From positions 1-10,608 of the forward strand of contig CALPYQ020000025.1 of NCBI GenBank assembly GCA_943327965.2: a DNA stretch of 10,608 bases. Reading direction: 5' to 3'. A model generated the notes under the pieces. It was not told the origin of the DNA and made no database searches. It worked only from the letters and a program-made list of their open reading frames with translations. A program made the position numbers and the translations under genes. This DNA is from Singulisphaera sp. GP187 (GTDB lineage: Bacteria > Pseudomonadota > Gammaproteobacteria > Burkholderiales > Burkholderiaceae_C). This document shows positions 1,746 to 5,956 of the stretch, piece after piece (the first letter of the stretch is position 1; each line of letters begins with the position of its first letter).

Positions 1746-3137
1746 ATGCATATACATATTTTGGGCATTTGCGGAACATTCATGGGCGGCTTGGCCGCGT
1801 TGGCCAGAGAGGCCGGGCACCGGGTCACTGGCTGTGATGCGGGCGTTTACCCGCCCATGAGTCACCAACTAGAAGCTTTGGGCATTGAGTTGATTGAGGG
1901 CTTTGGCATCGATCAGATGAAACTCAAACCTGACTTGTATGTCATCGGCAATGTGGTCAGTCGCAGCCGATTGCCGTCGGGCGAGCCAAAATTTCCTCTG
2001 ATGGAAGCCATTCTCGAATCGGGCGCGCCCTACACCAGCGGCCCCCAATGGTTGTCCGAGCACGTGCTGCAAGGTCGGCATGTGTTGGCGGTTGCTGGCA
2101 CTCACGGCAAAACGTCCACAAGTTCCATGCTGACCTGGATTCTGGAAGCAGCCGGCCTGAAGCCGGGTTTCTTGGTGGGCGGCGTGCCCCTCAACTTTGG
2201 TGTGTCTGCGCGATTGGGCGAGGTCGTGACTGGCCACGAGCGAAACTACTTCGTGATTGAAGCCGATGAGTACGACACGGCCTTTTTTGACAAGCGCAGT
2301 AAGTTTGTTCATTACAGGCCGCGCACGGCTATTTTGAACAACCTAGAGTTCGATCATGCCGATATTTTTGAAGACCTGAAAGCCATCGAAAAACAATTCC
2401 ACCACCTGGTTCGAACTGTGCCAGGTCAAGGGCGTTTGATCGTGAATGGGCTCGAGGAGAGTTTGACCCGGGTCTTGAACCAAGGTTGCTGGAGCGAAGT
2501 CAGAACATTCGGTGCCGCAGTCAGTGACTTCATCGCTGAAGGCAGTCCGCATGATTTCGAGGTCATTCAACACGGACAAAAAGTCGCCCATGTGAATTGG
2601 GCGCTAGGCGGTGTTCACAATCAACTCAATGCATTGGCGGCAATGGCAGCCGCCGAGCATGTGGGCGTTTCACCTCAAGTTGCGGCACAGGCGCTGTCCA
2701 GTTTTCAAAATGTGAAGCGGCGCATGGAAGTGCGCGGAACGCTTGCGGGCGTGACGGTCTATGACGACTTTGCCCACCACCCGACAGCCATTCGAACCAC
2801 GATCGATGGCCTGCGTCGACAAATTGGATCTGAACAGCGTATCTTGGCCATCTTCGAGCCGCGCAGTAACACCATGAAATTGGGCACCATGAAGTCACAA
2901 CTTCCTTGGAGTCTTGAACAAGCCAACTTGTCTTTCTGCCATAGCGGCGGCCTAGACTGGAACGCCCAGGAAGCCTTGGCTCCCATGGGCACAAAGGCCC
3001 AAGTGGCTGCCAACATCGATGAATTGGTGAAACAAGTGATGTCACACGCCAAAGCGGGTGATCACTTGTTGTGCATGAGCAATGGCGGCTTCGGAGGCGT
3101 TCACGACAAATTGTTGAATGCCTTGAAGCAGTCCTGA
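1746..3137 (+). CDS. mpl: UDP-N-acetylmuramate:L-alanyl-gamma-D-glutamyl-meso-diaminopimelate ligase
   Basis: Mpl attaches the tripeptide L-Ala-gamma-D-Glu-meso-DAP, released by murein turnover, directly to UDP-MurNAc using ATP, and so recycles peptidoglycan in the cytoplasm. The 463-aa protein has the Mur-ligase layout. An N-terminal Rossmann-like domain carries GICGTFMGG (8-15), the Mpl variant of the MurC glycine loop. The ATP-binding P-loop is AGTHGKTST (117-125). Central-domain motifs include EADEYD (172-177), LNNLEFDHADIF (199-210) and GVHNQLNA (289-296). The C-terminal domain carries YDDFAHHPTA (339-348) and EPRSNTMK (371-378). The HHPTA and EPRSN motifs and the GTF loop fit Mpl rather than MurC. 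The start is the ATG at 1746; no Shine-Dalgarno sequence is present. The gene is divergent from the hypothetical gene and converges on aroG with one base between stops. Confidence 0.96.
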   Translation: MHIHILGICGTFMGGLAALAREAGHRVTGCDAGVYPPMSHQLEALGIELIEGFGIDQMKLKPDLYVIGNVVSRSRLPSGEPKFPLMEAILESGAPYTSGPQWLSEHVLQGRHVLAVAGTHGKTSTSSMLTWILEAAGLKPGFLVGGVPLNFGVSARLGEVVTGHERNYFVIEADEYDTAFFDKRSKFVHYRPRTAILNNLEFDHADIFEDLKAIEKQFHHLVRTVPGQGRLIVNGLEESLTRVLNQGCWSEVRTFGAAVSDFIAEGSPHDFEVIQHGQKVAHVNWALGGVHNQLNALAAMAAAEHVGVSPQVAAQALSSFQNVKRRMEVRGTLAGVTVYDDFAHHPTAIRTTIDGLRRQIGSEQRILAIFEPRSNTMKLGTMKSQLPWSLEQANLSFCHSGGLDWNAQEALAPMGTKAQVAANIDELVKQVMSHAKAGDHLLCMSNGGFGGVHDKLLNALKQS

Positions 3138-3138
3138 G

Positions 3139-4263
3139 TTATTTTTGGCGGCGCGCCTCAACGGCTTGGGCCAAGATTTCCAAGACCTTCTCGCTGTCTG
3201 ACCAGCCAATACAGGCATCGGTAATGCTTTGGGCATACTTCAAAGTACTCACATCGTCTTTACCGGGCGTGAATTTTTGTGTGCCCGATTCGATGTGACT
3301 CTCCACCATCACACCAAAAATTTGACGTGAGCCCTTGCTAATTTGTGCGGCAATGTCTTGCGTCACATGAATTTGGCGCTCGTGTTGCTTGCTGCTGTTG
3401 GCGTGGCTGCAGTCCACCATCAAGCTTGGGGGCAGTTTGGCGCTGGACAGGTCTTTGCAGGCTTCGTTCACACTTTCTTCATCGTAGTTGGGCGCTTTGC
3501 CGCCACGCAAAATCACATGGCAATCGGGATTGCCTTGGGTTTGCACAATGGCCACTTGACCATTTTTGTGGACCGACAAAAAGTGATGGCCCCGAGCTGC
3601 AGCCTGTATGGCGTCGGTGGCAATTTTGATATTGCCATCGGTGCCATTTTTGAAGCCAATGGGCGCTGACAAACCAGAAGCCAGTTCTCGGTGAACTTGG
3701 CTTTCCGTGGTGCGCGCACCAATGGCACCCCAGCTGATGAGGTCACCAATGTATTGCGGTGAAATCACGTCCAAGAACTCACTGCCTGCAGGCAAACCTT
3801 GTCGATTGATTTCAATCAAGAGTTGGCGTGCAATGCGCAACCCCTCGTCGATTCGATAGCTCTCGTCCAAGTACGGGTCGTTGATCAAACCTTTCCAGCC
3901 AACGGTGGTTCGTGGTTTCTCAAAGTACACCCGCATGACAATTTCTAAAGTACCTTGGTATTTGTCACGCAAGGGTTTGAGGCGGCGTGCGTAATCTAGC
4001 GCGGCAGCAGGATCATGGATTGAACAGGGGCCAATGATCACCAGCAAGCGGTCGTCCTTGCCAGCCATGATGTTGTGAATTTTGCGACGCGTCTGAGAAA
4101 TCAGCGACTCCACAGCCGTTCCCGTGATGGGGAAAAAGCGCATCAAATGTTCGGGCGGCGGCAACACGGTGATGTCCTTGATGCGTTCGTCATCGGTCTG
4201 CCCCATGCGGTCCAATGGGTTGACATAGCGAGGCTCCGAATTGGCTTTGGCTTTGGTGTTCAT
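3139..4263 (-). CDS. aroG: 3-deoxy-7-phosphoheptulonate (DAHP) synthase, class I AroG/AroF/AroH type
   Basis: This enzyme condenses phosphoenolpyruvate and erythrose 4-phosphate to DAHP, the committed first step of the shikimate pathway. The 374-aa protein aligns by eye along its whole length with E. coli AroG. It shows GPCSIHDP (78-85), RVYFEKPRTTVGWKGLINDP (111-130), GARTTESQVHRELASGLSAP (182-201), GFKNGTDG (203-210) and VDCSHANSSKQ (283-293). The expected metal ligands are present: Cys80, His286, Glu321 and Asp349. An N-terminal extension of about 20 residues precedes the DDERIK segment common to the family. The start is the ATG at 4263, with AGGAG at 4270-4274 six nt before it. A Phe-rich leader peptide and terminator lie directly upstream, suggesting attenuation by charged Phe-tRNA. 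Which amino acid inhibits the enzyme allosterically cannot be read with confidence. The stop is one base from that of mpl. Confidence 0.96.
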   Translation of the reverse strand: MNTKAKANSEPRYVNPLDRMGQTDDERIKDITVLPPPEHLMRFFPITGTAVESLISQTRRKIHNIMAGKDDRLLVIIGPCSIHDPAAALDYARRLKPLRDKYQGTLEIVMRVYFEKPRTTVGWKGLINDPYLDESYRIDEGLRIARQLLIEINRQGLPAGSEFLDVISPQYIGDLISWGAIGARTTESQVHRELASGLSAPIGFKNGTDGNIKIATDAIQAAARGHHFLSVHKNGQVAIVQTQGNPDCHVILRGGKAPNYDEESVNEACKDLSSAKLPPSLMVDCSHANSSKQHERQIHVTQDIAAQISKGSRQIFGVMVESHIESGTQKFTPGKDDVSTLKYAQSITDACIGWSDSEKVLEILAQAVEARRQK

Positions 4264-4307
4264 CGTGGGCTCCTGTCTGAAAATTGAATATTGAAAATTT
4301 TTGGAAT

Positions 4308-4339
4308 AAAAAAACCGCCGGGTGTTGAGTCCGGCGGTT
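4308..4339 (-). terminator. Intrinsic terminator in the aroG leader (attenuator hairpin 3:4)
   Basis: On the minus strand the stem AACCGCCGG / CCGGCGGTT (4339-4331 and 4321-4313) is a perfect 9-bp GC-rich helix with a 9-nt loop, ending in a run of seven U (4314-4308, two of them paired). It points toward aroG and lies 44 bp before the aroG ATG, after tldD. Its position after a Phe-rich leader ORF makes it the terminator of an attenuator. It may also stop transcripts coming from tldD. Confidence 0.9.
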
Positions 4340-4358
4340 GGTAGAGGGGTTCAGTGAC

Positions 4359-4433
4359 TTATGCGCTGGCCTCTCGTCCGCCTAGGACTGAGAATGCAAA
4401 ATAAAAGCTAAAAAAGCTAAAGCGCTGGTTCAT
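4359..4433 (-). CDS. Phe-rich leader peptide of aroG (24 aa)
   Basis: This short ORF begins MNQRFSFFSFYFAF and ends TAA at 4361-4359. Within codons 5-14 there are six Phe codons (five TTT, one TTC) and one Tyr codon, a density expected of a pheL-type leader rather than a functional protein. It runs codirectionally with aroG; its stop codon is 19 bases before the terminator stem. The Phe run is followed by the 3' strand-forming codons (GGC GGA CGA GAG) that build the 1:2 and 2:3 hairpins. No clear Shine-Dalgarno sequence precedes the ATG. An extended -10-like TGCTACATT eight bases upstream raises the possibility of a leaderless leader-peptide mRNA. It is too short for standard gene calling and is likely to be unannotated. 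Confidence 0.85.
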   Translation of the reverse strand: MNQRFSFFSFYFAFSVLGGREASA

Positions 4434-4441
4434 AGGTTTGA

Positions 4442-4450
4442 AATGTAGCA
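4442..4450 (-). promoter_or_regulatory. Candidate extended -10 promoter of the aroG leader
   Basis: TGC-TACATT on the minus strand fits an extended -10 element (TGn plus TACATT, 4/6 to TATAAT). It lies 8 bases before the leader-peptide ATG, so transcription would start within a few bases of that ATG. No -35 with normal spacing is present; TTGTCA at 4470-4475 is 22 bp away. Confidence 0.4.
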
Positions 4451-4495: not shown

Positions 4496-5956
4496 TTATG
4501 CCGTACCGCCCACTGTTAGGCCTTCTATGCGCAATGTCGGTTGTCCCACGCCAACCGGCACACTTTGACCCTCTTTGCCGCACACGCCTACGCCTGTGTC
4601 TAGGCGCATGTCGTTGCCAATCATGCTGACATGCTTTAAACACTCAGGGCCACTGCCCACCAAGGTGGCGCCCTTCACAGGGTATTGAATCTTGCCGTTT
4701 TCAACCCAATAGGCTTCGCTGGCGGAAAATACAAACTTGCCGCTGGTGATGTCCACTTGGCCACCCCCAAAATTGGTGGCGTACAAACCTTTTTTGATAC
4801 TGGCCACAATTTCTTCAGGTGTTTTGTCTCCGCCCAACATGTAAGTGTTGGTCATGCGCGGCATGGGAATGTGCGCGTAGCTTTCACGGCGGCCATTGCC
4901 CGTGGGTTTGACGCCCATTAAGCGAGCATTCATGGCGTCTTGAATGTAGCCCTTCAAAATGCCGTCTTCAATGAGCACATTGCGTTGGCTGGGGCAACCC
5001 TCGTCATCGACGTTCAAAGAACCGCGTCGATCCGAAAGGGTGCCATCGTCTAAGACAGTCACACCCTTGGCCGCCACACGTTTGCCGATCATGCCGCTGA
5101 AAGCGCTAGAGCCTTTGCGGTTGAAGTCGCCCTCCAAGCCATGACCGATGGCTTCATGCAACAGCACACCTGGCCAACCAGGGCCAAGTACCACAGTCAT
5201 GACACCGGCAGGTGCAGGCCGCGCCTCTAAATTGGTCAGGGCGGCATGCACCGCATCGTCCACATACGAGCTAATCATGGCATCGTCAAAATAGGCCAAG
5301 CCAAAGCGCCCACCGCCACCGCCGCTGCCTACTTCGCGTCGGCCATTTTGCTCGGCAATGACTGTGACAGACAGGCGCACCAATGGCCGGACATCTGCCG
5401 CCAAAGTGCCATCGGCTCTGGCCACCATGACCACATCGTATTCACTGGCCAAACCCGCCATGACTTGCACCACGCGGGGGTCTTTGGCACGCGCCAATTG
5501 TTCAACTTTTCCAAGCAACTGAACTTTGTCAGCGCTGTTCATGGTGCCCATGGGGTCCAGCGAAGGGTACAAAGAGCGAATACCCGCCACCTTGCGCGCT
5601 GGCACTTTGGCTTTGCCATTTTGGCTGGCTTGTCCAATGGCTCGAACCGTGAGGGCTGCATCCATCAGAGAGGCCTCAGAAATGTCGTCGCTGTAGGCAA
5701 AGGCTGTTTTTTCGCCCGCTACCGCACGGACGCCCACGCCCTGATCGATGCTGAAGCTGCCTGTTTTGACAATGCCCTCTTCAAGACTCCAACCTTCGGC
5801 ACGGGTGTACTGAAAATACAGATCGGCATCGTCCACTTTGTGGGCCTTGATGGCACCCAAAGCTTTGGCCAAATGTGTTTCGTCCAAACCAAACGGTTCG
5901 AGCAACAGGGATCTGGCAGTGGCCAGGCGTTCAATGGTGGGTTCGCGTGAAATCAT
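4496..5956 (-). CDS. tldD: Metalloprotease TldD
   Basis: TldD is the zinc-protease subunit of the cytoplasmic TldD/TldE (PmbA) heterodimer, known in E. coli to mature microcin B17 and degrade the antitoxin CcdA. The 486-aa protein (E. coli: about 481) carries the Zn motif HEAIGHGLEGD, with His267, Glu268 and His272. The third ligand is the Cys of VCGKEGQSVPVGVGQP (Cys459), 27 residues from the C-terminus as in E. coli. The N-terminal part has FSIDQGVGVRAVAG (78-91) and the chain ends LTVGGTA. I chose the ATG at 5956; an upstream TTG at 5995 would add 13 poorly supported residues. There is no Shine-Dalgarno sequence, but a TACAAT lies exactly 6 nt before the ATG. It follows rodA on the same strand after 71 bp. 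Its partner gene (pmbA/tldE) is not in the window. Confidence 0.95.
   Translation of the reverse strand: MISREPTIERLATARSLLLEPFGLDETHLAKALGAIKAHKVDDADLYFQYTRAEGWSLEEGIVKTGSFSIDQGVGVRAVAGEKTAFAYSDDISEASLMDAALTVRAIGQASQNGKAKVPARKVAGIRSLYPSLDPMGTMNSADKVQLLGKVEQLARAKDPRVVQVMAGLASEYDVVMVARADGTLAADVRPLVRLSVTVIAEQNGRREVGSGGGGGRFGLAYFDDAMISSYVDDAVHAALTNLEARPAPAGVMTVVLGPGWPGVLLHEAIGHGLEGDFNRKGSSAFSGMIGKRVAAKGVTVLDDGTLSDRRGSLNVDDEGCPSQRNVLIEDGILKGYIQDAMNARLMGVKPTGNGRRESYAHIPMPRMTNTYMLGGDKTPEEIVASIKKGLYATNFGGGQVDITSGKFVFSASEAYWVENGKIQYPVKGATLVGSGPECLKHVSMIGNDMRLDTGVGVCGKEGQSVPVGVGQPTLRIEGLTVGGTA

Follow-up and report, generated by a model that had tools for sequence, protein, structure and literature searches.

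An aromatic leader peptide and probable transcription attenuator in front of the DAHP synthase gene aroG in part of the Burkholderiales

The window, by which we mean the whole 10,608-nt stretch of DNA analyzed here, carries on its minus strand the gene aroG (3139..4263), which encodes a type I DAHP synthase. The gene product matches DAHP_synth_1 above the cut-off and aligns with solved AroG-type enzymes, including the Phe-sensitive AroG of E. coli, like which it is of the Ser type (HHFLSV). aroG and an mpl-like ORF on the plus strand are convergent, and one base separates their stop codons (window 3137–3139). Upstream of aroG and on the same strand lies a leader region that opens with an extended −10 element, TGC-TACATT (4442..4450), located 8 nt 5′ of an ATG; no −35 element was recognized by eye. 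The ATG starts a leader peptide ORF of 24 codons plus stop (4359..4433; MNQRFSFFSFYFAFSVLGGREASA). The initial annotation had described this ORF as holding six Phe codons and one Tyr codon within a run of ten, and the translation agrees, with F5, F7, F8, F10, F12, and F14 and a single Y11 as the control codons. The stop codon (4361–4359) is followed by a spacer, a terminator (4339–4308), and the sequence AGGAG (4270..4274), which reads as the likely ribosome-binding site of aroG.

The leader contains four RNA strands that can pair in alternative ways. Strand 1 (4385..4394; UUCUC-A-GUCC, UUCUCAGUCC) begins at Phe codon 14, and strand 2 (4370..4382; GGCGGACGAGAGG), which can partner either strand 1 or strand 3, reads in frame as a conserved GGRE. 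Direct reading of the letters bears out both of the nonterminator structures proposed earlier, namely a 1:2 hairpin (4394–4371) with its onset at the last Phe codon (4394), and an alternative 2:3 helix in which GGCGG (4382–4378) pairs with CCGCC (4337–4333) and AGAGG pairs with CCUCU. Strand 3 (4331..4347; CCUCU...AACCGCCGG) is common to the antiterminator (2:3) and the terminator (3:4). Strand 4 (CCGGCGGUU, 4321–4313) and the U run (4314–4308) complete an intrinsic terminator (4308..4321) with a perfect 9-bp stem, AACCGCCGG...CCGGCGGUU, formed by 4339–4331 and 4321–4313. The stem thus stands as described, but the U7 tract ascribed to it does so only in part, since two of the seven U (4314–4308) pair with AA and five are unpaired.

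Folding of the whole leader of the window gave −37.9 kcal/mol (z −3.3); relative to dinucleotide shuffles, the terminator alone had a z of −5.2 (−16.4 kcal/mol). With strand 4, the 3′ half of the terminator, removed, the 2:3 helix became the minimum free-energy structure, although the stretch forming it was not unusually stable (z −1.2; 26 of 200 shuffles were as good). At equilibrium, the terminator always won in the complete leader, with a probability of 0.999 to 1.0 at every ribosome position, and before strand 4 exists, 2:3 outcompeted 1:2 even with strand 1 free (probability about 0.99). Because equilibrium favors the terminator overall and 2:3 over 1:2, the antiterminator and the 1:2 hairpin can work only through folding kinetics, and the switch must be cotranscriptional. 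Equilibrium folding is therefore a limit of the attenuation argument, not support for it. In a model of the stalled ribosome, using an assumed value of 13 nt shielded from the A-site codon, strand 2 remained free for stalls up to codon 13; a stall at codon 14 hid one of its bases, and later stalls hid more. The six Phe codons and the Tyr codon of the window all lie at or before codon 14.

Conservation was assessed at 110 close loci (L003–L112), comprising the best 30 of 148 matching genomes of the family and the best 80 of 593 matching named places; some of the named records (e.g., Polynucleobacter and one Solimonas record) may fall outside the family. The window is Limnohabitans-like; its nearest named record was Limnohabitans sp. 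MMS-10A-178, with 91% identity in the best segment. These loci yielded 108 distinct regions with at least 200 nt upstream. A strict test, demanding at least six F/Y/W within 12 codons of a short ORF and a terminator 15 to 110 nt past its stop, was passed by 94 of the 108, and by none of 540 mononucleotide shuffles, 108 antisense strands, and 862 other 450-nt windows from the same loci. With the remainder read by eye, the leader was found in 105 of the 108 regions, two of them atypical (L027 and L091), and was absent from three Polynucleobacter loci (L106, L107, and L111). Two metagenome-assembled genomes titled Polynucleobacter (L080 and L087) do carry it, unlike those three. The record titled Solimonas sp. 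SE-A11 (L098) has an aroG leader, MSISRAYYFGYWSPASGGRRARA, upstream of the match at 1501, and horizontal transfer, contamination, or a mislabel could each account for its presence there.

So that similarity would not govern the choice, we also sampled the rest of the ranked family genomes at near-regular intervals, which gave 40 more (the even draw). An aromatic leader preceded aroG in all 40, 36 of which passed the strict test; the other four (L323, L331, L341, and L358) were recognized by eye, and L323 had no terminator that the script recognized. Within the genus, the model R1 matched 38 of 40 genomes, the own one among them, and all 24 of good quality. One family genome (L203) carries tandem, diverged DAHP synthase genes (G140:C27, 64% and 60% identical), the first of which is preceded by an aromatic leader (MLFRAYFFFWFYLCRPAVRG) with a terminator.

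Pairing was examined in an alignment (A1) of 98 sequences. Left out deliberately were L001, L024, L032 (start codon misassigned by the script), and L091; also omitted were L017, L023, L027, L051, L063, L106, L107, and L111, for which the script found no terminator, and L062, whose contig ends 4 nt upstream. The 1:2 and 3:4 helices pair in 89.8% of cells, compared with 41 to 56% when slid, and 31 cells are changed on both sides, compared with a shuffled mean of 12.8 (none of 500 shuffles as high) and 4 to 16 when slid. Six of the nine terminator pairs are invariant and hence uninformative. The inner 1:2 pairs form in just 70% of cells, a result of forcing two loop types into a single alignment; when the sequences were folded singly, the 1:2 region had a median of −10.8 kcal/mol among those listed. 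In 2:3, pairing occurs in 95.9% of cells for the core and in 59.6% for the outer part; folded singly, 96 of 97 sequences can form the core (GGCG with CGCC; median −18.2 kcal/mol). Covariation of 2:3 equals that of shuffles across the 98 aligned leaders, because the core is nearly invariant and the outer part aligns badly. RNAalifold on A1 recovered only the terminator; 1:2 and 2:3 were therefore specified from the window before testing, a procedure somewhat in their favor. Of what the initial annotation had proposed to test in related aroG upstream regions, the Phe-rich ORF, the terminator, and covariation of 1:2 and 3:4 were found, but 2:3 covariation above shuffles was not. The loss of Phe codons or of pairing in close relatives, which it had named as counting against attenuation, was not seen in the 98 aligned leaders.

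All 98 aligned leaders are in frame at strand 1. Their last four control codons are Tyr in 77, Phe in 97, Trp in 80, and Phe in 86, the last being Ile in 8, so that by alignment column the third-last codon is Phe in 97/98 and the last in 86/98. Synonymous variation occurs at these codons (TTT/TTC and TAC/TAT; for Tyr, TAC 56 and TAT 21). Aromatic residues make up 668 of 1542 positions before strand 2 and 11 of 628 after it; the control codons thus precede strand 2, with hardly any over or behind it, and the same holds in the window. The most conserved part behind the aromatic run is GGRE, the reading of strand 2. Two variants stood out: four leaders (L065, L075, L084, and L092) carry His amid the aromatics (e.g., YHFWHFHIQH and FYFWHFHLPPH) and have GGCGCAGGAG as strand 2 and not GGCGGACGAG, and eight (L069, L071, L073, L081, L102, L103, L105, and L110) have a TGA stop within strand 2 (GGCGGATGAGAGG or similar) that yields 18-codon peptides. 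Several of the latter are titled Acidovorax or Comamonas.

The sequence just before the ATG was compared as well. In 103 of the 105 close leaders, a TAnAnT hexamer (TACATT in 76) lies within 22 nt of the ATG, and in 103 the hexamer has the TGn extension (TGn-TAnAnT). It ends 6 to 9 nt before the ATG in 101 of the 105 and in 33 of the 40 even-draw leaders, and between −18 and −5, GGAG, GAGG, and AGGA are absent from all 105 close leaders. Transcription usually begins about 7 nt past a −10 hexamer. With this spacing, the 5′ end of the mRNA would therefore coincide with the ATG or fall within some 2 nt of it, and the message is probably leaderless, the start codon being translated without a 5′ UTR.

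To see how far the element extends, we searched beyond the family. R1 matched 44 of 200 genomes of the order (E ≤ 0.001), including the own genome and four of its family, and the 29 non-own loci obtained from the 43 non-own matching genomes all lie before aroG. A DAHP synthase at E ≤ 1e-60 was found in 43 of the 60 genomes that made up a protein-led sample of the order; after exclusion of two genomes of the own family, an aromatic leader with a terminator was present in 13 of 41 and absent from 28, among which we scored L155 and L234, with 6 aromatics and no fitting terminator, as lacking the element. Outside the order but within the class, 67 non-own genomes matched, and 1 of the 29 regions read has a leader (L191). 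On this sampled spread, the element therefore belongs to part of the order.

Across 216 distinct loci, the leader was linked to one kind of isoenzyme. A Ser/Gly position, which we take to distinguish Phe-type from Tyr-type enzymes (FLSV of AroG and FVGI of AroF are visible in the alignments), showed that strict leaders precede 124 Ser-type genes and 1 Ala-type gene. Of the 27 Gly-type genes, none follows such a leader; 47 Ser-type genes also have no strict leader, and 17 genes were left unclassed. This count is not one of independent events, because related genomes are counted separately and some upstream regions of second copies lie inside a neighboring gene. The own genome (69% complete) yielded one DAHP synthase; a further PF00793 match (L002) was rejected because it reads as KdsA. 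Two candidates for further copies of the element in this genome (L114, E 0.04; L115, E 0.48) show no aromatic leader.

Two other aromatic genes were inspected. In 10 of 24 trpE loci, with 6 at contig ends left out, the gene is preceded by a short ORF ending in RGAW(P/S)WRQP, which looks like a separate Trp leader peptide; these ORFs come from congeneric genomes (L267, L269, L273, L276, L277, L281, L282, L283, L286, and L290). At pheA, none of 25 loci had a leader with at least five aromatics, after exclusion of 2 loci at contig ends. This pattern fits a division of labor in which the Trp branch would be controlled by Trp and the entry step by Phe and Tyr, and possibly Trp.

We interpret the element as a classical ribosome-mediated transcription attenuator of aroG that acts cotranscriptionally, and put the probability of this reading at about 0.88. 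From the anatomy, conservation, pairing, and codon placement described above, we infer the start site, translation, stalling, and read-through in the following scheme. Transcription would begin at the leader ATG or no more than about 2 nt from it, and a ribosome would load on the 5′-terminal AUG. With charged tRNA-Phe and tRNA-Tyr at hand, the ribosome would reach the stop codon and cover strand 2, whereupon the 3:4 terminator would end transcription near 4308. If Phe (or Tyr) were short, the ribosome would stall on codons 5 to 14 and leave strand 2 free; 2:3 would then form ahead of strand 4 synthesis, allowing RNA polymerase to read into aroG. The leader would thus probably shut aroG down under an ample supply of charged aromatic tRNAs.

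The same hairpin could instead be nothing but the terminator of tldD, which lies codirectionally upstream with its stop at 4496, and the Phe-rich ORF a chance reading in front of it. A tldD match occurs somewhere in the fetched stretch at 81 of the 94 strict close loci, but in 36 of the 94 there is none within 450 nt upstream, 13 have none anywhere in that stretch (a few with short flanks), and 24 of 26 strict loci found with the model have no tldD in 450 nt. A chance ORF is also hard to square with the zero counts among the 540 shuffles and 862 other windows and with a frame kept by every aligned leader, and given this conservation at the codon level we reject the tldD reading as very unlikely. 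Somewhat less remote, though still improbable, is that the leader ORF specifies a small protein that functions in its own right, with a terminator downstream of it. The S. meliloti leader peptide peTrpL is reported to act in trans (PMC7298713). In the present element, conservation is confined to the aromatic run and the strand 2 nucleotides; the N terminus is variable, and 6 of 89 anchored leaders end at a stop codon within strand 2.

Within attenuation itself, the question is which amino acids are sensed. The leader may respond to Phe only, the Tyr and Trp codons being incidental or kept for the sake of the RNA sequence. Phe is indeed the most constant residue (at one codon, 97 of 98 leaders have it, and at least three Phe in 103 of 105 close and 40 of 40 drawn leaders), and Trp is missing from 11 of 105 close leaders, 4 of 40 drawn ones, and 10 of 30 congeneric leaders read, the window included. 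In addition, the FYF leader of aroF in C. glutamicum, as described in PMC11802643, answers to Phe and not to Tyr. Against this, Tyr is present in 104 of the 105 close leaders, in all 40 drawn leaders, and in all 31 strict leaders from outside the close set; Trp is present in 94, 36, and 21 of these, respectively, the 31 outside leaders leaning toward the family type because they were mostly found with R1; and the Tyr codon varies synonymously. A Phe-only sensor is quite possible, if on balance the less expected outcome. All three aromatics occur together in 94 of the 105 close leaders, and most leaders follow the family consensus YFWF and hold Phe, Tyr, and Trp codons. Tyr and, outside the clade of the window, Trp codons are part of the control run, which extends the Phe-only reading of the initial annotation. 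Among the best 30 of 38 congeneric leaders, the Trp position is Trp in 20, Gly in 4, and Ala in 6, the window being of the FYFAFS type with Ala in place of Trp. Judged by these codons, Trp looks ancestral and lost more than once, with Phe and Tyr retained; the clade of the window has lost it, and only Phe and Tyr could be sensed there. Tentatively, and at just under even odds, we suggest that one leaderless peptide integrates the charging of Phe, Tyr, and Trp tRNAs for the Ser-type DAHP synthase in part of the Burkholderiales, that the Trp branch has its own Trp leader, and that the clade of the window retains the Phe and Tyr inputs but has lost that for Trp.

Attenuators of this general design are familiar. 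The enteric pheA (pheL) and pheST leaders are Phe-rich, with a mutually exclusive antiterminator and terminator, and the present element shares these features while serving a different target gene. Leaders responding to several amino acids are known (ilv and thr), but we know of no description of one spanning all three aromatics. The leaderless start has a parallel in S. meliloti trpL, and E. coli aroG, like the other DAHP synthase genes of that organism, is under repressor control of the TyrR/TrpR type. The window gave five chance-level matches against Rfam (E up to 5), none to a leader family, and left the Phe_leader model (presumably accession RF01859) unmatched; 16 relatives likewise gave no leader family at the gathering score. 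Attenuation of enteric pheA and pheST is mentioned in PMC11802643, as is control of E. coli aroF and aroH by TyrR/TrpR, which acts on the same enzyme step in response to end products but through DNA-binding repressors and with no leader peptide. The closest counterpart, not named in the initial annotation, is aroR of C. glutamicum (Phe-Tyr-Phe), which raises aroF under limitation of Phe, not Tyr, through ribosome stalling (Neshat et al. 2014, as described in PMC11802643; also PMC4046766). Both are short aromatic leader ORFs before a DAHP synthase gene; by these descriptions, aroR is actinobacterial with FYF named, whereas the present element is proteobacterial, with longer runs that mostly include Trp. 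The leader ORF of C. glutamicum ilvBNC also has no ribosome-binding site (Morbach et al. 2000, cited in PMC4046766), and like trpL it concerns other amino acids and genes. By term counts, the main text of an attenuator survey (PMC2965389) contains no aroG, DAHP, or phenylalanine, and we found no description of a betaproteobacterial aroG leader in the open-access library searched. In view of these literature and Rfam negatives, we therefore file the element as a new family of a known kind of attenuator.

The finding provides a candidate RNA family for which we found no Rfam counterpart, and a naturally occurring set of sensors, some with Trp and some lacking it, that are set apart by single codons. 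It also ties a leader to one isoenzyme type of DAHP synthase and offers a compact explanation for the control of aroG in Comamonadaceae-like bacteria. At the first committed step of the aromatic pathway, a large betaproteobacterial family appears to use tRNA charging and not TyrR/TrpR.
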